Of a DNA stretch of 46,076 bases, positions 1 to 46,076 are shown in pieces (positions within the stretch are counted from its first letter, which is position 1; the number at the start of each line of letters is the position of its first letter). The notes below the pieces were generated by a model. The model saw nothing but the letters and a program-made list of their open reading frames with translations, was not told the DNA's origin and did not search any database. A program made the position numbers and the translations under genes. The stretch is from a virus: IMG/VR virus record IMGVR_UViG_3300046507_000169, positions 1 through 46,076 of that record; one strand, given 5' to 3'.

Positions 1-61
1 CCCGTTCTTGGAGCCACAGCAGCACACAACAGACCGTGGGGTTGTTCTTGTACTCAACCAT
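1..61 (-). CDS. Nudix hydrolase, N-terminal fragment cut by the contig edge
   Basis: The ATG at 61 starts the same 20 residues that begin the complete Nudix gene at the other end of the contig (start 45719). The contig edge cuts the gene. It overlaps the stop of the upstream dNTP diphosphohydrolase by 8 bases, exactly as in the right-hand copy. This is not a separate gene; the full copy is at 45324-45719. Confidence 0.85.
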   Translation of the reverse strand, partial: MVEYKNNPTVCCVLLWLQER

Positions 62-418
62 TCTTCTTGGCCTTCAGGTGCTCGTGGAGCATGCCGCTTG
101 CGTTGAACAGCAGCGCGCACAGCTCGGTATCCAAGTCCTTCACGATGGTCTCGCCCTTGACCACTTCCGTCACAGGCAGGCCACGCCAGAGCTTCCACAC
201 GGCAAAGAAGTGTCGCCACAGGCTCTTGATGTAGACGCCCATAGGGATACCCAGCTGCCAGTTGTCGCTCTCGCGCATCGAGCCGTCAGGCATGCGCCGT
301 GCCTTGTGCATGTGCTCGGCGTAACGTTCGAGGACGAGAGGGCTCAGGAAGCCTTCGAAGTCGAGCTTGTTGGCGTCGAGGTCACGGGTTGCCCCTGTGC
401 CGAACTCGCGAACAGCAG
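1..418. repeat. Left copy of divergent terminal redundancy
   Basis: Bases 1-418 align without gaps to 45659-46076. By eye there are about 27 mismatches (about 93.5% identity), concentrated between 78 and 330. The outermost 77 bases and the innermost ~80 bases are identical. The copy holds the start of the Nudix gene and the C-terminal part of the dATP/dGTP diphosphohydrolase. Most differences are synonymous. A true terminal repeat of a packaged phage should be identical at both ends, so the best reading is circular closure across two strain variants. Confidence 0.9.
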
Positions 419-7055: not shown

Positions 7056-7621
7056 TAGAACGGAATGTCGTCTTCGTCGTCCTCGGTGCCCTCAGGGCCA
7101 CCTTGGTCTTCGCCGTCGTCACTCTTCGCCTTGCCTGCGAAACCCTCTTCCTCGTCGAAGGGGTTCTCATCGCGCTGCTGCAGCTCCAGCAACTGGATGC
7201 TGTTCATGTACAGGTTGATGCCGCCGCCGAAGCCTGTGTAAGGATTGACGGTCACGTAGACCTTGCCCTTGGAGCCGCCACCAATTTTGACGGTCACAGG
7301 GACTTCCTGCTTCTTCGCGTCGTACACGGTCGGGCGATACTGCTCGCCGCTGGTGACGGTAAGGGTCAGCTCACCCGTCTTCTTGTCCTTCCGCCAAGGC
7401 TTCTTGCCGTCCTCGACCTCAAACAGCGTCATCATCTCGTCCAGCCACGCATCGACCTCACGGTGATCTGCGTCGTTGAACTTCAGGTTATTGATGAACC
7501 GTCGCTTCTCGGCACCGCTCGGGCGGCCCTTCTTGTCTACCGGCTGGTAAACATCGACTTCGTTGAGCTTCGGCCACACGAATGTTGCAGCCGGGAGGAC
7601 CTTCTTAACTTTCTTCGTCAT
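7055..7621 (-). CDS. Single-stranded DNA-binding protein (T7 gp2.5-like role)
   Basis: 188 aa. The order SSB-endonuclease I-helicase-polymerase is that of T7 gp2.5-gp3-gp4-gp5. The N-terminal 140 residues look like an OB-fold (alternating beta segments VTVKIGGG, GKVYVTVNPYTG) with conserved aromatics. The C-terminal ~40 residues are Asp/Glu/Gly-rich and end EDDEDDIPF. T7 gp2.5 also has an acidic tail that contacts polymerase and helicase, but the DDIPF end is that of bacterial SSB. ATG 7621 has only a weak ribosome site. Confidence 0.85.
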   Translation of the reverse strand: MTKKVKKVLPAATFVWPKLNEVDVYQPVDKKGRPSGAEKRRFINNLKFNDADHREVDAWLDEMMTLFEVEDGKKPWRKDKKTGELTLTVTSGEQYRPTVYDAKKQEVPVTVKIGGGSKGKVYVTVNPYTGFGGGINLYMNSIQLLELQQRDENPFDEEEGFAGKAKSDDGEDQGGPEGTEDDEDDIPF

Positions 7622-10869: not shown

Positions 10870-11034
10870 CTAGGCCGCTCGCGCGGTCAGCTGGTGCAGC
10901 ATGCGGTGCTCCAGCTCATAGGTGTTGACGCCGTTGGCCTCCAGCACAGCCCGCACCGTTTCCGGTACAGGCACGCCGTTGAGGATGGCTGCAGTAAAGA
11001 CACGCAGCGGATTGGTGGGCTTAGGCGAATGCAT
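10870..11034 (-). CDS. Small hypothetical protein overlapping the RNA polymerase end
   Basis: 54 aa from ATG 11034, 14 bases inside the end of the RNA polymerase gene. Sequence PLRVFTAAILNGVPVPETVR followed by a leucine-rich helix looks like a compact helical domain. The ribosome site is weak, so translation is probably coupled to the polymerase. Confidence 0.65.
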   Translation of the reverse strand: MHSPKPTNPLRVFTAAILNGVPVPETVRAVLEANGVNTYELEHRMLHQLTARAA

Positions 11035-13615
11035 ATTTTGCATTGAGCAACTCCTTCAGTTCTAGCGTGCCCTTCTCAGGCAGCTGGGGTAACTTTTCTT
11101 GGCTTGCAGGGGTGAGGTCCGCCCGGGCGCTTTCAAGAAGCTCCGAGAGGATGTCGTGGTCGGCATACATCCGCATGAGTGTTTCGCGGATGATGGTCAG
11201 GAACCGAGGGGCGTCACAGGCCAGACAACCGAAGCTGTCGTGCACCGTGGCGATATCGGTGATGCCTTCGTCGGCAGCGGCACCCACTGAAAGCAGGAGG
11301 TGCGATGCGTCCATCGAATGCGTGAAGTTAGCGGCGATACCAGCCGCAGCCTTCTCCTTCGCGATAGGCTTTTCCAAACCAGTCGCGATGGTTAGTTCAG
11401 TCCGACGCTTCACGCCTTTGTCGTAGCAAAACAGCTCGACGCGTTGCGTGGTGCTCTCGTGGTAACGGTTGATGCACGTGACGCCCGCAGGGGTGACCCA
11501 GCGGACAGGCTTGCCTTCGTGTGCCAGTATCTGCGCGAGCTTCTGCATGAACTCCATCGCAGCTGCAGGCAGCTTGACGACTTCCTTGATGGCAGTGAGC
11601 ACGCGCTTGGCGAGATACCGAGAGGCAAGACGCCACTCGTCTTCGTCGTCACCGAACGGGTGGTTCGTGATTTCCTTCTTGAGCAGCTTCAGCTCCAGCG
11701 GAGCCATAGTGTCTTCGAAGTGTTGTTGAGACATGCCAAACTCTTTGCTGGCATAGCTGAACGTCATCACGTTGCGCTTCACGAGCTTGCGGTCCACACC
11801 GAACGCCACGGACATGCGAGCAAGCTTGTCGAAGGTGGCGACTGTCTTACGCTCGGGCTTCTTCTCGTCCGCCTTGCCGAACAGCTCCATGTTGCCGTAG
11901 TCGGCCTCGATCAGCTTCTTCGCCAGCTCTGCGATGACGTTGTAGATGTCGAGAGGAGAGGCGTTGTCTGTCAGGTTGACCAAGCGTCCCTGAGGGTCAC
12001 GGGTCATCAGGCAGAGATGCTGCAGGCCGTTGCACGCACCGTCCCACGAGGTGGGCATGTGGGTGACGTAGGAGGCCCCAGTGTCGATGGCTTGGACAAG
12101 CTCACGGCAACCGGCGAGGAAAAGGAACGGGCTGTCAGCCTGTGTCCATTCCGTGCGGTACAGTGGGCGCTTCACGTAGTCGCGGAGGTCGTCGAGGTTA
12201 TCGTCGATCCATTTGACACGCTCTTCGAACGGCTTCTTGTCGATGCCGATCTTGTCTTCGCCTTTGAAGGCGCCGCAGTTGGCCACGTGGACCTTGAGCC
12301 ACCAGATGCCTTCGTCGCCAATGGGCTTGCCATTAGCAAAGAGGAACAACGAGCGGACGCGGTCTTCGCGCTGGAAGTTGAACCGGGTGAGCGCATAGGT
12401 ACGCGTGCGCCAATCCCAATTCATCGGTGTGTAGAAACGCGGAGCCTCTGCTGTGCGCAGTGCGGTCTCCATGTCCTCGGCGTACTGCACAGTGTCAGCA
12501 TCGTTAGCCCGGTTGGCCTTCTTAAGCCCCCGGATGGTCTTGCTGAGCAACCTGCGCTGGTCGATGTCCAGCTCTACGAAGTCGTCGTCGGACATACGTT
12601 TGGGGACGTCGAGGTCCTTCAGACGCGGCAGGCCTTCGACCTTGATGCCGTGCTCGTAGCACTTCGCAATGACGTCCATGATCCAGGTATTGATCTTGAA
12701 CGGCACAGCCTGCAGGACATTGAGACCCTTGAGGGCAGGGGCCATGGCTCCAGTGCGGATGCCGTGACGCGCAGCGCTCATAACGTCCTTGTGGAACGTG
12801 CGGAGCAGTTGGGCTCTGTCGAGGGTCCGGTCGTCTTGAGCCACACGCATGACGAAGCTGTCCCAAGGCTTGGGTGGCTCGGTGCGCGGCTGGTAGACCG
12901 GCGACTTCAGGACGGTCTCCATCACAGCAGCCTTGGCCATCTCTCGGCCATGGTCGGTGATGCGCCAGACGGTCTCGCCCTTGAACGTCTCAGGGTCCGC
13001 TATCTCGAACACGTCGGGCAGGGTCTCCAGCAGGAGGCTCATGCCCCAGTTGCCAGCGTGGAGGCGCTCGTGCACCGTCCATTCCTGCATCGTGAAGGTG
13101 TTGCCATCGGCGTCGCCTTTGGCCGCCATGCGCTTTGCAGCGGCGACACGAAGGTCTACGGAACCGAAGCGCTCCTTAGCCGCCTTGGTGACCTTGGCGG
13201 CCAGCTTGCTGTTGGTGTGGAGCAGCTTGGCGGCCCACAGCTCGTTGTTGAGAGCCGTGGCGATCCCGAGAACCGCGTCCCGCACTGACATCGTCGTTGT
13301 GCCAGCGGCCCGCAGGGCTGATCCCAGCAAGGCCAGAGCGACCACCTCAGGATCGAGGGAACGCAGCAGGCGCTGCAGGCGGAAGTCATAGGTATTCGAC
13401 CGGGGCCGAGGTCCACTAAGGGCCTTAGTGACACCAAGGGTCACCTGAGAAAGATAATTGGAGGTAATTGCTAAACCACCAATCGTGGAACCGAACCCAG
13501 CATTGCGTTCTGCCCGGGCTTCACGCTTGGCAACCTTGCGGTCGGCCTCAGTAAGCTCGGTGAGATACGAGATGTCGGTCACTGGTAGAACACTGGGGAG
13601 AACACTGGTGTCCAT
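11021..13615 (-). CDS. T7-type single-subunit RNA polymerase
   Basis: 864 aa (T7 gp1 is 883). All key residues are present: D525 in PTSWDGACNGLQH (T7 D537), K613 and Y621 in VKRNVMTFSYASKEFG (T7 K631, Y639), and H792-D793 in TVHDSFG (T7 H811, D812). The FTHSMDASH block and the YAFA C-terminus, equivalent to the T7 foot FAFA, are also kept. It transcribes phage genes from its own promoters. ATG 13615 has GAAGGAG 9 bases upstream. It lies on the far side of attP from the integrase, behind a terminator at 13743-13764; no convincing host promoter is visible in the 128 bases between that terminator and its start. Confidence 0.97.
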   Translation of the reverse strand: MDTSVLPSVLPVTDISYLTELTEADRKVAKREARAERNAGFGSTIGGLAITSNYLSQVTLGVTKALSGPRPRSNTYDFRLQRLLRSLDPEVVALALLGSALRAAGTTTMSVRDAVLGIATALNNELWAAKLLHTNSKLAAKVTKAAKERFGSVDLRVAAAKRMAAKGDADGNTFTMQEWTVHERLHAGNWGMSLLLETLPDVFEIADPETFKGETVWRITDHGREMAKAAVMETVLKSPVYQPRTEPPKPWDSFVMRVAQDDRTLDRAQLLRTFHKDVMSAARHGIRTGAMAPALKGLNVLQAVPFKINTWIMDVIAKCYEHGIKVEGLPRLKDLDVPKRMSDDDFVELDIDQRRLLSKTIRGLKKANRANDADTVQYAEDMETALRTAEAPRFYTPMNWDWRTRTYALTRFNFQREDRVRSLFLFANGKPIGDEGIWWLKVHVANCGAFKGEDKIGIDKKPFEERVKWIDDNLDDLRDYVKRPLYRTEWTQADSPFLFLAGCRELVQAIDTGASYVTHMPTSWDGACNGLQHLCLMTRDPQGRLVNLTDNASPLDIYNVIAELAKKLIEADYGNMELFGKADEKKPERKTVATFDKLARMSVAFGVDRKLVKRNVMTFSYASKEFGMSQQHFEDTMAPLELKLLKKEITNHPFGDDEDEWRLASRYLAKRVLTAIKEVVKLPAAAMEFMQKLAQILAHEGKPVRWVTPAGVTCINRYHESTTQRVELFCYDKGVKRRTELTIATGLEKPIAKEKAAAGIAANFTHSMDASHLLLSVGAAADEGITDIATVHDSFGCLACDAPRFLTIIRETLMRMYADHDILSELLESARADLTPASQEKLPQLPEKGTLELKELLNAKYAFA

Positions 13616-13742
13616 CTGGGGACGCTCCTTCGCTGGGCCGCTTTCGTGGGTAAGTCCGGTAGCTCGACTGCTAAGCTATTGGAAAACCACAAAATGATGC
13701 GTGATGGGGATGTTTTGACAGTTGTGCCGTTTCTGGGCGATG

Positions 13743-13764
13743 AAAAGGCCCGCCGTAGCGAGCC
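13743..13764 (-). terminator. Rho-independent terminator between attP and RNA polymerase
   Basis: Reading leftward: GGCTCGC, loop TACG, GCGGGCC, then TTTT. The 7-bp stem has one U-G wobble. It would stop leftward transcripts that cross attP before they reach the RNA polymerase. The short U-tract suggests partial read-through. Confidence 0.6.
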
Positions 13765-13767
13765 ATG

Positions 13768-13785
13768 CGCTTCTTATAGGAAGCG
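13768..13785. repeat. Inverted repeat beside attP
   Basis: CGCTTC, 6-base loop, GAAGCG: a perfect 6-bp inverted repeat between the attP core and the terminator. It may be an integrase arm/accessory site or part of the terminator structure. Confidence 0.4.
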
Positions 13786-13820
13786 ATTATTCATTTACAA
13801 GTGTCAAGATATTGCCAAAA

Positions 13821-13862
13821 GGTTTTCAAGACCGCTGCCTTAAACCACTCGGCCACCTTTCC
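13821..13862 (-). other. attP core: 5' half of a tRNA-Ser(UGA)
   Basis: On the minus strand, 42 bases match the 5' half of a bacterial serine tRNA. They include the acceptor strand GGAAAGG, a D-arm (GCCGAGTGGTTTAAGGC), anticodon stem GCGGT and loop CTTGAAA with anticodon TGA. The match stops three bases into the 3' strand of the anticodon stem, and no variable arm, T-arm or 3' acceptor follows. This is therefore an attachment site, not a tRNA gene. It is 17 bases downstream of the integrase stop, the usual place for attP. The crossover would fall near the anticodon loop. A flanking palindrome (CCACT-CGCA-AGTGG) lies at 13861-13874. Confidence 0.85.
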
Positions 13863-13879
13863 ACTCGCAAGTGGCTGTA

Positions 13880-15007
13880 TCAGCTGGCTTTTCCGATAGC
13901 AACGACATTCGTCTGCGGTTCCATTTTCTCCTCGCCCCCATGCGTTGGGGTGAGAAAATCCACTGCATCGACGAGGTCTTCGTTCTCCAAATGGATGTAC
14001 TGCTGCGTCGTCGAGTAGCTCTTATGTCCCATGAATTGCTGCACTTTTTCTCCGACCATGTTGTTCTTCGTCAGGTAGGTGCCAGCGGCGTGACGCATGC
14101 CATACATGGTGAGGTTGGGGTTCCACCCATACAGTTTTCGCGCTTTGTCATAACGCTTGCGGCTTCGTTCATAGCTTGCACTGTATCCGTTCTGCAAAAG
14201 TCCTCTTAGGTCACGCGCCAGCTGCGGCGGGATCGGGATGTCGCGTGGCGTGTCCGTCTTGGTCAGGTCGAGCTTGATCCAGCCAATCTCTTGCTGTTTG
14301 GCAGTCTTTGTCAGCTGCACCATGTGGGGCTCGAGACCCTCAAACTCGCTCCAGCGCATGCCCGAGGCGCCGAGCACGCGAACCACGATCACCTCGTCCA
14401 CCCAGCCCTTGGACTGGTAGAACTTGATCAGGAGCCCTTGCTGTTCGTGCGTCATGAAGTGGATGCGCGTCTTGACCACGTTCTGCCAAGGCACGACCGG
14501 GGGCACGAAGGTTCCATAGGTCTTCGGGCGGGCAGCGCTCCAGGTGAGCACGGCTGATGCCATGGTCAGGTAGCCGTTCAGCGTGCGGCCCGTCATCTTG
14601 CCCGTGGCGTTACGCTTGGACTTCACTGGACGCTTCAGCAGGTCGTCAACGATTCCCTGCAGGTCCTCCGTGGTGACGCCTTTGACGGGCCTCTTGCCTA
14701 TCTTGCTGATGACCCAGTCGAGGCGCTTCTGGCCGCTGGGATCGCGCCCACGCTTCCATTTGGGGTGCACCGCGCGCATGTCCGTTGCAGCCTTTTCGAA
14801 GGTGACACCAGCAGCCTCATCGTCTTCAGGATCGGCCCAGCGGCCCGTCTGGCGCGCGTAGGCTTCATTGGCGTCTGCGGTTGCCTTGGTGTCGAACGAC
14901 AGGCGGCGCATGCGCTTATCCGGCTCCCCGGGCGCCTTGAACCAGAAATCCACACCCCACTTGCCTGTCAGCTTTTTGGTGCGTTGGTCTCTCACTGCGA
15001 ACGACAT
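13880..15007 (-). CDS. int: Tyrosine-recombinase integrase
   Basis: 375 aa. Catalytic residues are visible: R218 in GMRWSEFEGL, K250 in LTKTDTPR, R305-H306 in MYGMRHAAGTYL (Tyr replaces the first His of HxxR), H328 in FMGHKS and nucleophile Y337 in TQQYIHL. The N-terminal ~65 residues form an arm-binding-type domain and 70-170 a SAM-like core-binding domain. It integrates and excises the phage at a serine tRNA gene through the adjacent attP. ATG 15007 has AAAGGA 8 bases upstream. Integrases are uncommon in T7-like phages. Confidence 0.95.
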   Translation of the reverse strand: MSFAVRDQRTKKLTGKWGVDFWFKAPGEPDKRMRRLSFDTKATADANEAYARQTGRWADPEDDEAAGVTFEKAATDMRAVHPKWKRGRDPSGQKRLDWVISKIGKRPVKGVTTEDLQGIVDDLLKRPVKSKRNATGKMTGRTLNGYLTMASAVLTWSAARPKTYGTFVPPVVPWQNVVKTRIHFMTHEQQGLLIKFYQSKGWVDEVIVVRVLGASGMRWSEFEGLEPHMVQLTKTAKQQEIGWIKLDLTKTDTPRDIPIPPQLARDLRGLLQNGYSASYERSRKRYDKARKLYGWNPNLTMYGMRHAAGTYLTKNNMVGEKVQQFMGHKSYSTTQQYIHLENEDLVDAVDFLTPTHGGEEKMEPQTNVVAIGKAS

Positions 15008-15183: not shown

Positions 15184-15615
15184 TTACTTGGGTGCGGTCT
15201 TCAGTGCTTCTTTGATGCGTCTGGTCATCGCTGCGCCCTTGGGCGTAACGCGAGCGTGGTGACGTCGTAGGTCTGTGGGATCACGCTCTTGAGTGACTAG
15301 GCCAAAGCCTTCCTCGCGCGCACGATTGCGGTCACCAATGTCGAGTAGGTGGCGCGTCATGACGGTCGGACTAACTTCGGCTGTCTTGGCGTACTCAGTC
15401 ACCCCAGCGCCTTCCTCCATGCCTACAAGGCAGAAGGTCATGACGTACTGAAGTGGCATTGTTGGTCGCAATGCGGTGAAGTTCTTGAGCGCCAAGTATA
15501 GCGCCCGCAATGCGGCCCGATCCTCTTCAGTGAGGGTGGGCTTAAACTCGGACATTCGTCCCCCTAGTTGTGCAACTGATAAATCTTCATTGCCGCTCAC
15601 GTTTAAGTCCAACAT
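15184..15615 (-). CDS. MarR-like winged-helix regulator
   Basis: 143 aa from ATG 15615 (GAAAGG 8 bases upstream). Residues about 55-135 show the MarR order: a helix LQYVMTFCLVGM, a helix-turn-helix GVTEYAKTAEVSPTVMTRHL, and a wing with the characteristic RDPTDLRRHHARVTPKG (MarR family: D.RD.R...LT..G). It is immediately upstream of the integrase group and is the best lysogeny-regulator candidate in the window; no CI/Cro-type repressor is seen. The target is unknown. Confidence 0.75.
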   Translation of the reverse strand: MLDLNVSGNEDLSVAQLGGRMSEFKPTLTEEDRAALRALYLALKNFTALRPTMPLQYVMTFCLVGMEEGAGVTEYAKTAEVSPTVMTRHLLDIGDRNRAREEGFGLVTQERDPTDLRRHHARVTPKGAAMTRRIKEALKTAPK

Positions 15616-15754: not shown

Positions 15755-15808
15755 ATGTTTCAGCCTCCTTTGCACGCTAGTTCCTGTATAGGAACCGATA
15801 GACAGTTG

Positions 15809-16318
15809 TCAACCGATGTCGTCTTGTGTGGCTCCGTCAGACATCTGAATACCGGGGCTATGGTTGAAGATTTGGTGAGGCGTGTGGACACGCTGACCAA
15901 CTGAGAAGCCCGCCCACAGGAGGCACGCGACCAGTGCGAGCTTGCTGAGTTGGCGAACGTTAGTTTTGGGTTCTTGTTCTGGCACCAGGTTAGTGACAGC
16001 AGGGCAACGAATGGCAGCACGCAGATACGGCAGGAAGTCCTCAGTGTCGTAAGGTGACGCCACAAGCATGTTATCAGCATGCCACAAGGCTGGAACGTCA
16101 CCTTCAGCCAGCAACCACATGGTACCGTCTTCGTCGTCAACGTGGCTGACGAAGAACTTTGTTCCCATTGGAACTAACCCAAACTCGTAAGGGTAGTCCG
16201 CTGAGAGTGACAGGACGTCGCCAACCGTGAAGGCGTGCGGCGTGGTCTTTGGTGCATTCACGGAGACGGGTTGCAGGTCGAGGTTCAAGGCGAAGGTTGG
16301 GCGCATTACGTTTCTCAT
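15809..16318 (-). CDS. Hypothetical protein with C-terminal membrane segment
   Basis: 169 aa from ATG 16318, or 165 from ATG 16306; ribosome sites are weak for both. The N-terminal ~115 residues are soluble (a beta-rich stretch FTVGDVLSLSADYPYEFGLV resembling a small beta barrel). A single hydrophobic segment LALVACLLWAGFSVG lies near 127-141. No family recognised. Confidence 0.6.
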   Translation of the reverse strand: MRNVMRPTFALNLDLQPVSVNAPKTTPHAFTVGDVLSLSADYPYEFGLVPMGTKFFVSHVDDEDGTMWLLAEGDVPALWHADNMLVASPYDTEDFLPYLRAAIRCPAVTNLVPEQEPKTNVRQLSKLALVACLLWAGFSVGQRVHTPHQIFNHSPGIQMSDGATQDDIG

Positions 16319-18911: not shown

Positions 18912-19249
18912 GCATTAGTTTGACATCTGGCACATAATTATCGTTAGACTTTGGTCTATGCCTCAGGAAGCCATTAGGGAATCACTGGCAGGCCTTGCAC
19001 GCGGGCAGGGGAATGGCATCGGGATACACAGGGGAACGCGTGTAGAGCCCGCGCTGGCCGGTCTGAGTGGGGTTTCGCCTTTAGGCCTTCTCATCCCCTA
19101 TCGGTCATAAACTTTTTGTACTGATCCGCATTTAATGCCATGGCCGCTAAGCCCTTGGTTTCCCTGTGTATCCTGTGTTCGCAACCTGGATCGCACCCAC
19201 GCGCACCCACGTATTCCCTAGGCCAGCGGATCGCTTAACCGTTGGCAAC

Positions 19250-19512: not shown

Positions 19513-19532
19513 GTAATGATATCAATGGGTTA
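19513..19532 (+). repeat. 20-bp element, copy 2
   Basis: Exact copy of 19250-19269, 263 bases downstream and 86 bases before the first virion gene. Flanking bases differ, so conservation is limited to the 20 bases, as expected of a protein-binding site. Confidence 0.6.
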
Positions 19533-19617
19533 GATGGCGAAGTACCGGACTTATACACCAGAAGGCGCCGACTGATGCGCCTGACCTCGCTAATTCGCAA
19601 TCCAATGGAACCCTTAG

Positions 19618-20484
19618 GTGCCCTTAGAGACAGCTACCTTCGTCTCCGACCTGATCCCGGCCAACCCGGCGCACAGTGACGGCCTCAATCAGGCCGATGC
19701 ACACATGCGGTTGATCAAGGCGGCGCTGAAGGCCTCCTTTCCCCACACGGGGACGATTACCAATTCCGACAGCCAGATAGTCCTGCTCGACGGGACCTCG
19801 ACCAAACCTTCCTACTCGTTCGCCTCTGAGCCCACGCTGGGCTTCTACCGATTGTCCTCGGGACTGATCGTGATTGGTGGTGGACGATTGATCGGCAATG
19901 GCGCTGTGCCTGTTGGATCACTTCACGAGTTTCTGTTTGAGCCTGAGGGCTTCAAGAACGACGGCAGCGCAGGTGGTCAATACCTGGAGCTGAACGGCGT
20001 GACCTACAACACTGCAGACTATCCCCGTCTCGCTACGCATCTCGGTGTGACTGCATCGACGTTTGCGTTGTTGAATGTGACTGACACCGGACGCTTTGCG
20101 CGTTCTCGCCGCACTGGCGTTACCGCTGGCACCAAGGAAGCAAACCTCGTCGGTGCGCATGGCCATACGGCTACTGCAGACGCTGCGGGCTCCCATGCTC
20201 ACAACGTGTCAGGCTCGACCGGCTCCATGGACCGTGCGAACCCGCATAGCCACAGCACCGATGCGCAGCAGAACAATCCTAACTTCGGCGCAGGTACGCA
20301 GACGCCGCGTGCTCCTCAGACCGGACAAGCTACGATCAACGCGACCGACATCAACCACTTGCACTCTGTGTCAGGTGCTACGGACGCTCAGGGTAACCAC
20401 ACGCACGTCATCACTGTCGCGGCTAACGTAGGCGCTGAGACGCGTCCAGAAGCGTACAGCGTCATCAAGTGTATCAAGACGTAA
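19618..20484 (+). CDS. Tail fibre/collar-type protein with HxH metal motifs
   Basis: 288 aa from GTG 19618. The central part has the phage tail-collar layout (VPVGSLHEFLFEPEG, then QYLELNGVTYNTADYPRLAT). The distal part has repeated His pairs, AHGHT, SHAHNVSG, PHSHS, HLHSVSG and NHTHV, like the HxH motifs that bind iron in the T4 gp37 receptor-binding tip. It likely forms a trimeric fibre or needle that contacts the host. Unusually it is the first gene of the rightward unit, away from the second fibre gene at 36189. The ribosome site is weak. Confidence 0.75.
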   Translation: MPLETATFVSDLIPANPAHSDGLNQADAHMRLIKAALKASFPHTGTITNSDSQIVLLDGTSTKPSYSFASEPTLGFYRLSSGLIVIGGGRLIGNGAVPVGSLHEFLFEPEGFKNDGSAGGQYLELNGVTYNTADYPRLATHLGVTASTFALLNVTDTGRFARSRRTGVTAGTKEANLVGAHGHTATADAAGSHAHNVSGSTGSMDRANPHSHSTDAQQNNPNFGAGTQTPRAPQTGQATINATDINHLHSVSGATDAQGNHTHVITVAANVGAETRPEAYSVIKCIKT

Positions 20485-25560: not shown

Positions 25561-28065
25561 ATGGACCTGACGAAACTTTCCGACGCCGATCTGTTGGCAC
25601 TGAAGGACGGCGACTACGCCAAAATGAGTGACGACGGTTTGAAGCAGCTGAAGGCTTCGTCGGGTTCCGCGAAGGAGCCCTCCGGGGCCGTCGCTGGTTT
25701 CTCCAAGGGGACCGAAGACATCGCAAACGGTGTCAAGGAAACCGCCAAGCAATACCTGGGTGTCGGGCAGGGCGCAGAAAAGCCCTCCGACCCCAACTAC
25801 GTTCCGGCTGAAGTCATCAATGGCTTCAATCCGCTCAAATGGAATTACGATCAGCTTCCGCAGAAGGTAGCTGAGGTTGCACCGGGCCTCGCAGAAACCG
25901 CAGCCGCCGCAATGGCGGGCTCTAAAGTCGGTTCACTAGCTGGCATCCGTGGTCGCTTCCTCGGCGGCCTCGCGGGCGCCGCAGGCTCGATCTGGGCGAA
26001 CAACGCAGGCAACTCGGCTAAGGCTGACGCTGTCCGACGCACAGGCGATCCCAACGCAGAACCCGACGCTGGCGACAAGACCCGCGCAGGTTTGACCGAA
26101 GGTGTCTCCGCGCTCGCGCAGGCAGCTGGCCCAATGCGCTTCATCCCGGGCGCAGGTAACGCAGCGAAGGCTGTAGGTACCGCAGGCCTCAAGCAGGCTG
26201 CAGAGCGCTGGCTGGGAACGACCGCAGTCGCGGGTGCTTCTGGTGGCGCAGCTGATGCTATCTCGCAGATCGGCAACACCATCGGCACCGACAAGGGTGT
26301 CCAGTTCGACCCGAGCCGCACCGCTGACGCTGTCATTGGCAACGCTGGCGCCGCTGCGCTCATGGGTGCTCCTCGCGGAGCCGCCGACGCTTACACAGCT
26401 GCTCGACAGCGAGTGTTTGGTGGTGCCAACGCAGACGCGACATCCGCATACTTCAACCGGCTGCAGCAGAACGCAGGCGCTGATGGTCTCGGCAAAGCGA
26501 AGAACGATTTCAACGCTCACGAGAACACCAAGACGAACCTGCGCAATGAACTGCAGGCCGTAGACGCCACTGGCTTCCCGCAGGACATTCAGAACACGAT
26601 GGCTCTCGCCCGTTCAGGCAAGCCGTTAACTGAGGATCACGTCAAGAGCGTTGAAGCAGTAGACCCGCAGGCAGGCTACCTCGCACGACAGCTCCACGTC
26701 GCGCAGCAGGCCGAGCAGTTCGGCTCACTGGACCGCGCAAGCGGCAGCTGGGCAGGCGGTCTCTCCGGTCTGGCCGACAAGTACGCCGTACGTCCCTTCA
26801 AGTCTCACGCGCTGATCAGTGGTGCTGCCGGTCTAACTGGCGTCCACATGCTCGGCTCCTATGCTGCCCCGACGCTCGCCAGCGCTGCTGGTGTGTATCT
26901 CGGTGCACGCGCTGTCGATAATCTCACTGGCATGCGCTCGCCCGCCAAGGGCATGGCTGAACGCTTCGTCGATCAGAACGTGCCAACGCGCCTCGGTCCT
27001 CCTCCAGCTCCGACGCCGCCGCCGCAGCCCTCAGCTCCCACACCGGGACCGTGGGGCCCGCGTCCACAGGCGAACACTTCGGTGCCGCAGGTGGCTCCAC
27101 AGCAGGCGCCGCCTCAGGCTCCTCAGCTGAACCCCGTCGCAATGAACATGTTGAAGCAGCGCCTGAAGCAGGGCCTTCCTCAGCAGCCAGCTCCAGCGGC
27201 CCCACAGGCTCCAGAGCTGTCGCCAGTCGCGATGAGCATGCTGAAGCAGCGGCTGAAGACTGGTCTCCCTCCAGAGCCCACGCCGACGCCCGAGCCCGTA
27301 CCTGAGGCTCCGCAGTTGTCACCTGTTGCCATGAGCATGCTGAAGCAACGCCTGAAGCAAGGCCTTCCTCCAGAGCCCGCTCCTGAACAAGCCCCGGCCC
27401 CTCAGGCTCCGGCTCCGAAGGCTCCGCAGGTTAATCCGTTGCGTCTTCCTACTGACGTCACGGTGCCCGCGAAGAACCTCATGAAGGGCCACGCCCTCGT
27501 GCAGGCCATGCAGGCACGGCAGAATGCTCCTACGTCGTCCATCAAGATCACGAAGACGAGCAACGGCTCCGTCCAGGTGAAGGCTCCCGAGCCAACAGAA
27601 GCTCCCGCAGCTGCTGCACCGACGCAGTTCTATCGGCCCCTCGGTCCCGAGGAGATGACCTTCGGAGGCAAGGCGCTGGAGATGTCGCCCGCGCAGATCG
27701 GCAAGTATCTCGCTGACAAGCGGATGGCTGATAAGCCGGAAGACGTCAGGCAACGTTACGCCAACTCTGTCACGGACACGCACGCAGAGCGTCGTGCCAT
27801 CGTGCAGGACACCATCGCCAAACATCCGCAGGACGTCCTTACGCTCACTGAGTTGCTACACCAGCTCCACGAGCGCGGCACTGCCGAGCAAGCGAAGTCC
27901 GCCGTCCAGCACTACGCCAAGCAGGTGTCTCCCGACACTGCAGCGTCTCTGTTGTCAGGCTTCAACGATGAAGCGGTCAAGCGCATCTGGGCTACTCGCT
28001 CGGAGAAGAAGGCTGCCAAGCGCAAAGCAAAGAAGAATGAAAAGCAAGCCGAAGGGAACGCGTAA
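25561..28065 (+). CDS. Large probable ejection/internal virion protein with tandem repeats
   Basis: 834 aa. The start LTKLSDADLLALKDGDYAKM is a common opening of large podovirus internal or ejection proteins. Residues 100-330 are Ala/Gly-rich with hydrophobic, membrane-active-looking stretches. From about 521 to 610 three copies of PVAMxMLKQRLKxGLP are joined by Pro/Ala/Glu linkers. The end is helical and ends with a very Lys-rich tail (KKAAKRKAKKNEKQ). Probably packaged in the capsid and released with the DNA. Confidence 0.7.
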   Translation: MDLTKLSDADLLALKDGDYAKMSDDGLKQLKASSGSAKEPSGAVAGFSKGTEDIANGVKETAKQYLGVGQGAEKPSDPNYVPAEVINGFNPLKWNYDQLPQKVAEVAPGLAETAAAAMAGSKVGSLAGIRGRFLGGLAGAAGSIWANNAGNSAKADAVRRTGDPNAEPDAGDKTRAGLTEGVSALAQAAGPMRFIPGAGNAAKAVGTAGLKQAAERWLGTTAVAGASGGAADAISQIGNTIGTDKGVQFDPSRTADAVIGNAGAAALMGAPRGAADAYTAARQRVFGGANADATSAYFNRLQQNAGADGLGKAKNDFNAHENTKTNLRNELQAVDATGFPQDIQNTMALARSGKPLTEDHVKSVEAVDPQAGYLARQLHVAQQAEQFGSLDRASGSWAGGLSGLADKYAVRPFKSHALISGAAGLTGVHMLGSYAAPTLASAAGVYLGARAVDNLTGMRSPAKGMAERFVDQNVPTRLGPPPAPTPPPQPSAPTPGPWGPRPQANTSVPQVAPQQAPPQAPQLNPVAMNMLKQRLKQGLPQQPAPAAPQAPELSPVAMSMLKQRLKTGLPPEPTPTPEPVPEAPQLSPVAMSMLKQRLKQGLPPEPAPEQAPAPQAPAPKAPQVNPLRLPTDVTVPAKNLMKGHALVQAMQARQNAPTSSIKITKTSNGSVQVKAPEPTEAPAAAAPTQFYRPLGPEEMTFGGKALEMSPAQIGKYLADKRMADKPEDVRQRYANSVTDTHAERRAIVQDTIAKHPQDVLTLTELLHQLHERGTAEQAKSAVQHYAKQVSPDTAASLLSGFNDEAVKRIWATRSEKKAAKRKAKKNEKQAEGNA

Positions 28066-35535: not shown

Positions 35536-36189
35536 ATGACCCTTGGAGAACTGAAGGCCCAATTCAAGGGTCTTCTCAACAACAACGTAATCAATAAGAA
35601 CGACGCGCTGCTCACCACCTTCATCAACCAGAGCATAATGCGCATCCAGAGGGAGCTTCGCGTTCCCTTCATGGAAAAGCAAATCCTTTACACCATCCCT
35701 GACACCTACACGAAGCTCGCGATCCCTTCGGACCTGCTGGAGCTTATCGCGATCATGGTGGATACCGACAACGATGGTGTCCTCGAATACGAGCTGATGC
35801 GTTCAGACCTCACAAGGGTCATGCGTGAAAGCCAAGTGCCCGGCATGACGCCGCGCATGTTCACCCGACAGGGCGGCAGCTGGATACTAGGTCCACGACC
35901 AGGTATCGGCTCACAGGTCCTCATTCACTATTACGCCGAGTTCTCCGCTCTCAATGCCGACACCGACACCAACACGTGTCTGAAGGTCGCATGGGACGCT
36001 GTGCTCTACGGTGCGCTCTCGGCAGCTGCGGACTACCTGCAGGACGACGAGCGTGGCCCCAAGTTCGAAGCTCGATACGGCCAGATCACCAAGCTCCTTC
36101 AGGATCAGGCTGACGCCGACGAGCTGACTGCGGATGCCGTAATGGCGCCCGCGCTGCCCATTGGCAATGACGACGGATACGATTGGTAA
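35536..36189 (+). CDS. Head-tail adaptor (SU10-type)
   Basis: 217 aa. Layout of podovirus adaptor proteins: a helical start LGELKAQFKGLLNNNVINKN, then INQSIMRIQRELRVPFMEKQ, a beta domain (LYTIPDTYTKLAIPSDLLEL, IHYYAEFSALNADTDTN) and a helical end. It should form the dodecameric ring under the portal. Start ATG 35536. Confidence 0.75.
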   Translation: MTLGELKAQFKGLLNNNVINKNDALLTTFINQSIMRIQRELRVPFMEKQILYTIPDTYTKLAIPSDLLELIAIMVDTDNDGVLEYELMRSDLTRVMRESQVPGMTPRMFTRQGGSWILGPRPGIGSQVLIHYYAEFSALNADTDTNTCLKVAWDAVLYGALSAAADYLQDDERGPKFEARYGQITKLLQDQADADELTADAVMAPALPIGNDDGYDW

Positions 36190-37439
36190 TGACAACCTCC
36201 TCATTCTACACGGATGGGGAGACCTATGACACGGCTGTGGTGACATCGAACGATAGACCGTCGAGCACCACGCCTTCACAGGCTCCCAGCTCCTTCTTCA
36301 CGAATGGTGGTGTCGTGGGCGAGGGGACCGTGGTCAACAATGAGACCGGCCCCGGCCCGCAGTCCAACACGCCGTCCTCGTTCTTTACCGATGGCCCCGT
36401 GGTCACCACAGGTACCGTCGAGAGTAACGATAGCCCCGGCAACAACGCCACCTCCCAAGCTCCCAGCTCGTTCTTCCAAGACGGCGGCCTCTACGACTAC
36501 CTGTCGCAAGAGAGCGCCATTCTGGAGAGCCTTGACGCCCTTGCGGCGCAGGTGCAGACCAACGCTGCCCAGACCCAGACCAATACGAACATCGCGACCA
36601 ACAAGGCCGCCACTGCGACCACGCAGGCTAACAATGCCGCTGCGTCCGCTACCGATGCTGCCACGTCGGCAACCAACGCGCACACGAGCGAGACCAACGC
36701 GGCCTCCAGTGCTACTGCGGCGGCCTCCAGCGCTACCGATGCTGCCACCTCGGCCACCACGGCCACCACTGAGGCTGGCGTTGCGACCACGCAGGCGAAC
36801 CTCGCGACCAACAGGGCCGCTAATGCTCTGACAGACGCGAACAACGCTGCTGCCTCGGCAACCGCTGCAGCCACCAGCGAGACCAATGCTCACACGAGCG
36901 AAGTCAATGCTGCGGCCAGCGCTACCGCTGCTCTCACCTCAGGCTTCCCCGCTGGCACCCGTATGCTCTTCCAGCAGACGGCGGCTCCCACGGGTTGGAC
37001 GAAGGACGCCACGCACAACGACAAGGCGCTCAGGATCGTCTCAGGCTCCGTTGGGGCAGGCGGTACCAACGCATTCTCGACCGTCATGGCTCAGACCACG
37101 GTAGGTGCGCACACGCTGACCGCAGCTGAAGTGCCGAACCTTGGCGTCTCGGTGTCAGGCACCATCACCGTCTATCCGAACAACAACGGCGGCTACTACT
37201 ACCCGATGGGTGCTAGTGCTGGCTGGGGTGGCGTGGTGATCAATAGCTATCCGCTCGCAACGACCAACACCCAGATGGCTTACTTTGGTGGTCCCGCAGG
37301 CAACGTCACCTACTCGAACTACATGCAGGGTGGCAACAGCATGGCTGGTGGTACGACCAACGGCGGCGGCGGTGCACATTCCCATCCCATAACGATGAAC
37401 ATCCAGTATGTGGATTTCATCATCGCGCAGAAAGACTAA
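36189..37439 (+). CDS. Tail fibre with N-terminal repeats, coiled coil and collar-like tip
   Basis: 416 aa from ATG 36189 (TAATG; a TTG two codons earlier is less likely). Four parts are visible. Residues 1-105 hold repeated SSFFTDG/GxV..GTV.SND units. A short linker follows. Residues about 115-260 are an Ala/Thr/Asn heptad-like coiled coil with repeats such as NAAASATAAATSETNAHTSE. The tip begins PAGTRMLFQQTAAPTGW, a tail-collar style sequence, and ends in HSHPITMNIQYVDFIIAQKD. Likely the host-binding trimeric fibre. Confidence 0.8.
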   Translation: MTTSSFYTDGETYDTAVVTSNDRPSSTTPSQAPSSFFTNGGVVGEGTVVNNETGPGPQSNTPSSFFTDGPVVTTGTVESNDSPGNNATSQAPSSFFQDGGLYDYLSQESAILESLDALAAQVQTNAAQTQTNTNIATNKAATATTQANNAAASATDAATSATNAHTSETNAASSATAAASSATDAATSATTATTEAGVATTQANLATNRAANALTDANNAAASATAAATSETNAHTSEVNAAASATAALTSGFPAGTRMLFQQTAAPTGWTKDATHNDKALRIVSGSVGAGGTNAFSTVMAQTTVGAHTLTAAEVPNLGVSVSGTITVYPNNNGGYYYPMGASAGWGGVVINSYPLATTNTQMAYFGGPAGNVTYSNYMQGGNSMAGGTTNGGGGAHSHPITMNIQYVDFIIAQKD

Positions 37440-45324: not shown

Positions 45325-45719
45325 TAAGAAAGGAAGTCCCGAACTGCTTGGGTGTGCATAGGATACGCGGTGTCCACTGGTTCCTTGACGGTGACCACTT
45401 CCAACACCTCGTCGTCGTGGGTGAAGTAGGCAGGGCCATGCAATGGCTTGGTGCACGTGAAGAACAGGACGTTGTGACCGTATTGATCGGTGCCACCACT
45501 GGAGAGCATGAGGTCACAAGGATCGACCGAGATGCCGGTCTCTTCCAACAGCTCACGTGCAGCAGCGACGTGCATTTGCTCGCCGTGGTTCTGGAAGCCG
45601 CCCGGGAGGGCCAGCTGTCCGTAGCCGTCAGGCAGACCACGTCTGATCAGAACGAGGCCCCGTTCTTGGAGCCACAGCAGCACACAACAGACCGTGGGGT
45701 TGTTCTTGTACTCAACCAT
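45324..45719 (-). CDS. Nudix hydrolase
   Basis: 131 aa. A perfect Nudix box, GFQNHGEQMHVAAARELLEE followed by TGI, matches Gx5Ex7REUxEExGU around residues 42-64. It lies right after the dATP/dGTP diphosphohydrolase with an 8-base overlap, so nucleotide or nucleotide-sugar/NAD-type substrates are likely; the exact substrate cannot be read. ATG 45719. Confidence 0.92.
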   Translation of the reverse strand: MVEYKNNPTVCCVLLWLQERGLVLIRRGLPDGYGQLALPGGFQNHGEQMHVAAARELLEETGISVDPCDLMLSSGGTDQYGHNVLFFTCTKPLHGPAYFTHDDEVLEVVTVKEPVDTAYPMHTQAVRDFLS

Positions 45720-46076
45720 TCTTCTTGGCCTTCAGATGCTCGTGGAGCAAGCCGCTGGCATTGAACAGCACAGCGCACAGTTCGGTCTCCAAGTCCTTCA
45801 CGATGGTCTCGCCTTTGACGACCTCGGTTACGGTGCCACCACGCCAGAGCTTCCACACGGCAAAGAAGTGCCGCCACAGGCTCTTGATGTAGACGCCCAT
45901 GGGAATACCGAGCTGCCAGTTGTCGCTCTCGCGCATCGAGCCGTCAGGCATGCGACGCGCCTTGTGCATGTGCTCGGCGTACCGTTCGAGGACGAGGGGG
46001 CTCAGGAAGCCTTCGAAGTCGAGCTTGTTGGCGTCGAGGTCACGGGTTGCCCCTGTGCCGAACTCGCGAACAGCAG
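45659..46076. repeat. Right copy of divergent terminal redundancy
   Basis: Same length as 1-418 without any indel and about 93.5% identical. Encoded protein differs at only about five of 121 residues (for example LP to GT, D to E, L to V, M to L), so most changes are silent. This supports real biological variants over read errors. Confidence 0.9.
45712..46076 (-). CDS. dATP/dGTP diphosphohydrolase-like, C-terminal part (contig edge)
   Basis: 121 codons of the family region, open to the contig edge. Same protein as 54-635 in a slightly diverged version (ends KDLETELCAVLFNASGLL). It continues in sequence terms at about base 419 of the window. Not a second gene if the genome is circular. Confidence 0.85.
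   Translation of the reverse strand, partial: AVREFGTGATRDLDANKLDFEGFLSPLVLERYAEHMHKARRMPDGSMRESDNWQLGIPMGVYIKSLWRHFFAVWKLWRGGTVTEVVKGETIVKDLETELCAVLFNASGLLHEHLKAKKNG

Follow-up and report, generated by a model that had tools for sequence, protein, structure and literature searches.

A probable temperate T7-like lysogeny module with a terminator between attachment core and RNA polymerase in a phage of Alphaproteobacteria

Temperate T7-like phages and the genome plan of the window

Work on LUZ100 has raised the question of how temperate T7-like phages silence a polymerase that amplifies its own expression. The transcriptomics of this phage place a regulator-integrase operon under a host promoter, a terminator after the integrase gene and a phage promoter before the RNA polymerase (RNAP) gene; its authors propose that the regulator represses this phage promoter and that read-through of the terminator behind the integrase starts the lytic loop (PMC10134795). 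In P-SSP7 and S-TIP37, a tRNA 'first half' that immediately follows the integrase gene serves as the attachment site (attP), and T7-like cyanophages of the same layout integrate without forming stable lysogens (PMC8776855). uv-Fonsiphage-EPL and HTVC011P/HTVC025P reside as prophages in tRNA-Leu(TAG) by the trigger factor gene, the phage restoring the tRNA-Leu that is lost (PMC6811365). Two further systems tie lysogeny to the attachment site itself. The mycobacteriophage BPs has its attP within the repressor gene, and the repressor is truncated on integration and becomes stable as a result (PMC4557955). In the tRNA-dependent lysogeny of Fionnbharth, the host tRNA is not restored by the short core, and an entire tRNA gene of the phage makes up for the loss (PMC10865867).

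The DNA analyzed here, called the window, is a virus record of 46,076 bases taken over its full length, and it represents a T7-type podovirus-like phage. Leftward from ~19 kb run the replication genes (exonuclease, DNA polymerase, primase/helicase and ssDNA-binding protein), the RNAP gene, the integrase gene and the early genes, and rightward from position 19618 (~19.6 kb) run those for the tail, internal virion proteins, terminase, portal, scaffold and major head protein. With its structural genes pointing rightward and its early and replication genes leftward, the window departs from the T7 gene order on a single coding strand. The polymerase itself is of the T7-type single-subunit kind that belongs to the temperate T7-like (Autographiviridae-like) lysogeny module. 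It matched 2581 phage records in tblastn searches and shares ~30% identity with its best matches among annotated phages, and likewise with the T7 group; close relatives sit on six viral contigs (64-89% identity in the best segments) and others reach 59, 47 and 42%. A profile search of genome contigs for this RNAP retained no relative, and megablast of annotated phages against a 25-kb half of the window gave no match at the DNA level.

The two ends of the record (window 1-300 and 45659-45958) form a direct repeat of 300 nt with 92% identity, which looks like a circular genome that was opened, with slightly different strains at either end. Within the virion region, three tandem in-frame 99-nt repeats occupy 27116-27403 in a long ORF (25561-28065) that had no PHROG match, and segments are repeated at 36586-36931 inside a tail-fiber-like gene (36183-37439).

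The genes around attP and the candidate signals read from the sequence beside them are, in order of transcription:

15785-15812, minus strand: candidate sigma70-like promoter of the regulator-integrase operon, TTGACA-N16-TATACA
15184-15615, minus strand: MarR-like winged-helix regulator, first full-size gene of the integrase operon (phrog_9665 'transcriptional regulator', 2.3e-18)
13880-15007, minus strand: tyrosine integrase (Pfam PF00589 Phage_integrase, 7.6e-13)
13874-13902, minus strand: weak candidate promoter at the 3' end of the integrase gene, TTGCTA-N17-TACAGC
13821-13862, minus strand: attP core, nt 1-42 of tRNA-Ser(UGA), the 5' half to the anticodon stem-loop (exact genome matches)
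11021-13615, minus strand: T7-type single-subunit RNAP, 864 aa (Pfam RNA_pol, 3.3e-82)

As in LUZ100, P-SSP7, S-TIP37, HTVC019P and Pasto, a MarR-like regulator and a tyrosine integrase are encoded upstream of the T7-type RNAP. The order is that of the lysogeny module throughout: the regulator stands directly upstream of the integrase, the integrase upstream of RNAP on the same strand, and attP between the two. Pfam and PDB matches of the regulator are weak. Its phrog_9665 family also has members in three relatives (L002, L008, L014) and, linked to the integrase, in P-SSP7 (gp0.7, annotated as MarR-similar), HTVC019P and Pasto; the ORF probably encodes a lysogeny regulator. In L002, a counterpart of the candidate promoter of its operon keeps the N16 spacing (TTGACA-N16-TATAGT). 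The integrase of the window shares 87% identity with that of L002 and 80% with that of L007, and a second integrase type, about 28-29% identical to it, is found in L006, L008 and G001. Pasto carries, between integrase and RNAP and several genes apart, a complete opposite-strand tRNA-Leu (L074 8491-8573) and an annotated terminator.

Judged by sequence, the window is set apart from the described temperate T7-like phages by three traits: a divergent organization, in which the structural genes point away from the early and replication genes; a 5'-half attP that is taken in its clade from tRNA-Ser or tRNA-Cys instead of the tRNA-Leu of those phages, including uv-Fonsiphage-EPL and HTVC011P/HTVC025P; and a conserved, apparently host-type promoter between attP and the terminator.

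The attachment core and the prophage junctions

The first-pass annotation had placed a half tRNA-Ser(UGA) between the integrase and RNAP genes, and all of its coordinates are correct; it did not state that the core is the 5' half. Read on the minus strand, the integrase stop (13880) is followed by 17 nt, the core (13862-13821), an interval of 205 nt and the RNAP start (13615). Identity to the host gene begins at tRNA nucleotide 1 and stops within the anticodon stem, and the flanks of the 42-mer show no evident similarity to those of host tRNA loci, either upstream or downstream. Attachment sites in tRNA genes mostly carry the 3' half. With a 5' half as the phage core, the host gene must be parted from its own promoter on integration.

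The expected host counterpart was found, as the exact 42-mer is present in nine genomes (Bradyrhizobium, three Tardiphaga, two Sphingomonas, a Beijerinckiaceae MAG, an Alphaproteobacteria MAG and a 'Geobacter' MAG). ARAGORN identifies a complete tRNA-Ser(UGA) in eight of the nine, and the ninth tRNA runs off the end of the retrieved stretch; all eight tested genomes hold one near-identical copy of the gene. By these matches, the 42-mer is part of an alphaproteobacterial tRNA-Ser(UGA), and since 'Geobacter' and Sphingomonas also match, it does not alone fix the host genus. No close relative of the window phage was found in the nine genomes. One genome, G015, gave two matches to the RNAP profile, and both loci (L027, L028) were excluded because no module lies upstream of the called ORF.

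The succession of integrase, tRNA 5' half, spacer, hairpin with U tract, leader and RNAP recurs in L002, L003, L006, L007, L008, L078 and L079, with tRNA-Cys(GCA) replacing tRNA-Ser as the source of the core in L007, L078 and L079. Since the order returns with another integrase type (~29% identical) and another tRNA (tRNA-Cys), the arrangement is more than chance.

The window clade offers its prophages at the integrase-side junction only. Among isolate proviruses with such a junction, G001 is the nearest to the window. Directly behind its integrase gene come a complete tRNA-Ser(UGA) (L014 7293-7382) and then non-phage genes, and its contig opens with the first base of the RNAP gene; L004 begins at the RNAP start codon. 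Just ahead of the rebuilt tRNA-Ser of L014, by 13 nt, a perfect TATAAT overlaps the integrase stop codon (GTATAATCA, within 7250-7293) and is a plausible phage-borne promoter for the host tRNA. More speculatively, the weak candidate at 13874-13902 of the window could transcribe the tRNA rebuilt beside the integrase in the prophage. Both the window phage and Fionnbharth would disrupt a single-copy host tRNA that the phage must restore. Unlike the short core of Fionnbharth, the 42-nt core of the window would rebuild the gene: the window holds no tRNA gene of its own, and the tRNA-Ser of the L014 prophage is complete.

Both ends could be mapped on whole genomes in nine prophages of more or less distant relatives, and each has RNAP at one end and the integrase with a complete tRNA at the other. 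Five of them (G1483, G028, G087, G406 and G420b) use tRNA-Leu 5' halves; here the complete tRNA lies beside the integrase, host DNA with the leftover 5' half precedes RNAP, and both tRNA copies read toward RNAP. The remaining four (G362, G888, G214 and G158) use tRNA-Cys or tRNA-Tyr 3' halves, with the core in the opposite orientation and the tRNA promoter at the integrase end. For G276, the integrase-side junction was not paired with the RNAP side. The topology of the earlier proposal, with RNAP moved to the far end of the prophage, is thus borne out in mapped relatives, where the integrase lies at the opposite end, and so is a host tRNA promoter facing RNAP, which is seen in the five 5'-half prophages, several of them with a strong terminator in between. 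For the window prophage itself, we infer the same end topology by analogy. As the lysogens of the cyanophages with this layout are unstable, stable lysogeny of the window phage is not to be assumed; the related chromosomal prophages favor it for the group to which the window belongs.

Promoter-like pair, terminator and leader element

The attachment site, the conserved host-type promoter, the terminator and the shared leader element fall within about 250 bp. The elements between the crossover and RNAP, together with the distant copies of the leader, are:

13773-13800, minus strand: sigma70-like promoter recognized by conservation, TTGTAA-N16-TATAAG, between the crossover and the terminator
13743-13764, minus strand: intrinsic terminator between core and RNAP, with a 7-bp stem, UACG loop and U tract (dG -11.5 kcal/mol)
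13646-13682, minus strand: RNAP leader element, CCAATAGCTTAGCAG..TACCGGACTTACCCAC (conserved upstream of RNAP in relatives)
19522-19558, plus strand: leader element repeated ahead of the rightward structural operon (matched at 19523-19558, 36 nt with 75% identity, E 0.006)
19144-19158, minus strand: possible third, weaker copy, before the early genes (PWM 24.1 vs 39-42 for the other two)

The promoter-like pair is conserved in its two boxes and in the distance between them. TTG and TATA stand at exactly N16 in 10 of 10 relatives, and most of the spacer is variable; the pair lies 18-20 nt past the core in most relatives (19-20 in nine) and 31 nt from the anchor in L080. Shuffles of 80 nt put the chance of such a pair at about 0.007 (0.0067) per sequence, and its boxes resemble those of the candidate promoter of the regulator-integrase operon. 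The TTGTAA box could instead belong to the recombination machinery, as an arm-type site of the integrase or a site for an accessory protein in attP, together with a second copy past the terminator (CAC.TGTAAAA). The constant spacing from the core agrees with such a role, as does a similar box ~90 nt further on in several relatives; but its TATA partner is just as constant at precisely N16, the variants TTGAAC and TTGGCA retain TTG while losing the rest of the box, and the box is common to phages with unrelated integrases. We regard arm sites as possible, if on the doubtful side. CCTATA motifs had also been considered as T7-type promoters and were dropped, since only the TTG-N16-TATA pairs are consistent across relatives.

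G002 (E 3e-5) and G362 (two copies, E 7e-4) likewise combine a leader before RNAP with a distant repeat of it. The natural reading of the element is that of a likely candidate promoter for the phage RNAP and/or an operator for the regulator, which would allow for coordinate control. Both the promoter-like pair and the leader lie between the crossover and RNAP, and hence both stay with RNAP after integration.

Taken as a single scan hit, the terminator hairpin (GGCTCGC-TACG-GCGGGCC + TTTT) is not significant, as 13 were found in the scan vs 16.7 expected from shuffles. It is found at the same place, with compensating changes in the stem, in all window-clade relatives that show the interval, and this conservation supports as real the terminator that the first-pass annotation had put on the RNAP side of attP. 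Under a uniform scorer for a hairpin with U tract between core and RNAP, L002, L003, L006, L007 and L008 score -11.4 to -16.0 kcal/mol, L078 -15.3 and L079 -13.1, and strong terminators are present in G276, G028, G420b, G1483, L065 and P-SSP7 as well. They are weak or absent in three further 5'-half cases (G087, G406 and G932) and in L090 and L097, so that insulation is not universal. In the 3'-half cases surveyed with the same scorer (G362, G214, G158, G888, L082 and L085), none was found. The hairpin starts only about 8-18 nt after the putative TTGTAA-N16-TATAAG promoter, an odd position for a terminator of that promoter.

When relatives are collapsed to lineages of our own counting, a terminator is present in 7 of 12 lineages whose tRNA promoter faces RNAP and in 0 of 5 others (one-sided Fisher 0.04, with thresholds set after the data were seen). 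This pattern is suggestive only of terminators that track tRNA promoters aimed at RNAP, and the link is weakened by L080, in which the promoter and terminator are present with no recognizable tRNA half. A survey of 73 further viral RNAP loci for strong terminators yielded few recognizable tRNA halves, and three more RNAP loci from Sphingomonadales had none. As natural variants differ in the direction of the host tRNA promoter, the question of silencing is open to a test.

Silencing of the polymerase in the prophage

The anatomy is real and conserved, and is best read as a variant of the known lysogeny module of regulator, integrase, attP, terminator and RNAP. We consider it probable that the window holds a temperate T7-like lysogeny module of an Alphaproteobacteria phage, in which the terminator insulates RNAP and the regulator holds its loop off. 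Recombination by the integrase would take place between the host gene and the first 42 nt of tRNA-Ser(UGA) that the phage carries. At the integrase end, a complete tRNA gene would then arise from a 5' half of phage origin and a 3' half of host origin, as seen in the related prophage, and at the other end the promoter of the host tRNA, still followed by the original 5' half, would face RNAP. The terminator would shield RNAP from transcription that starts upstream, which would come from the regulator-integrase operon in the circle and from the strong promoter of the tRNA once the phage is integrated. Low expression of RNAP could come from the conserved promoter near the terminator and from leakage through it, after which RNAP may amplify its own expression at the leader element, which it has in common with the structural operon. 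The MarR-like regulator, made at the other prophage end, would keep this loop off in the lysogen. Integration would thus swap the outside promoter that is aimed at RNAP and would not alone be the off switch. Insulation by the terminator combined with control by the regulator is the best current account, of which we infer the regulatory steps.

The integration-dependent switch of the first-pass annotation survives in its topology, which the junctions support, and is unlikely to hold in its central claim of silencing by integration. It proposed that RNAP falls silent once integration has parted it from the early promoter, that the terminator holds back transcription from the tRNA promoter and that a classical repressor is dispensable, in the manner of integration-dependent immunity in mycobacteriophages. 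The arrangement confirmed in relatives and the distribution of terminators by tRNA promoter direction would fit this proposal, although the latter depends on our own lineage counts and post hoc thresholds and has L080 against it. The terminator lies on the RNAP side of the crossover and is the same in both forms; whether RNAP is preceded by the integrase gene, as in the circle, or by the tRNA promoter, as in the prophage, the terminator stands in between and so cannot alone distinguish the two states. By the layout, integration would alter what precedes the terminator, not its presence. Nor is RNAP cut off from promoters, since the conserved sigma70-like promoter and the leader travel with it. 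In place of the absent repressor, a conserved MarR-like regulator is encoded upstream of the integrase, from the same family as the regulators of P-SSP7, HTVC019P and Pasto, a kind of regulator proposed to repress RNAP (PMC10134795). As in BPs, the context of a regulatory gene is changed by integration, but unlike in BPs, no gene would be truncated: attP is intergenic and not within a repressor ORF as in BPs/Brujita, and the ORF of the regulator (15184-15615) lies clear of the crossover at 13821-13862, which would leave its protein unaltered. Promoters of tRNA genes are strong and constitutive, and a leaky terminator would therefore increase, not decrease, RNAP in the lysogen. Repressor-free silencing is unlikely, as is a switch of the proposed kind that is sufficient by itself, and we hold silencing by integration alone to be very unlikely. 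By analogy, the window appears to fit the LUZ100 model better than a repressor-free one.

A plainer alternative is that the terminator merely ends the regulator-integrase operon, its place relative to attP having no regulatory meaning in the prophage. There is a precedent in LUZ100, where terminator T4 directly after the integrase gene stops most of the integrase transcript (PMC10134795). Yet in every examined relative, the terminator lies beyond the attP core and never between integrase and core, the 3'-half prophages also need an end for their integrase transcript and are without a terminator, and in the prophage the integrase operon no longer reaches it. We consider this explanation unlikely. 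Somewhat less so, though still rather doubtful, is a promoter-exchange switch, in which the tRNA promoter replaces the integrase operon before RNAP and the terminator would have been selected as an insulator specifically in phages with 5'-half cores. If true, the stability of the lysogen would rest on the terminator, and its failure would induce the prophage. The layout also carries a caution: a prophage can bring a lytic polymerase to lie immediately behind a promoter that ranks among the strongest in the host.

In G420 (L058, C1 720001-724000, with L057 and L059), two different T7-like prophages lie in tandem in one tRNA-Leu(TAG), next to a gene that reads as that for trigger factor, and in both respects they resemble Fonsiphage and the pelagiphages. 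One of the two has a 5'-half core and the other a 3'-half core.
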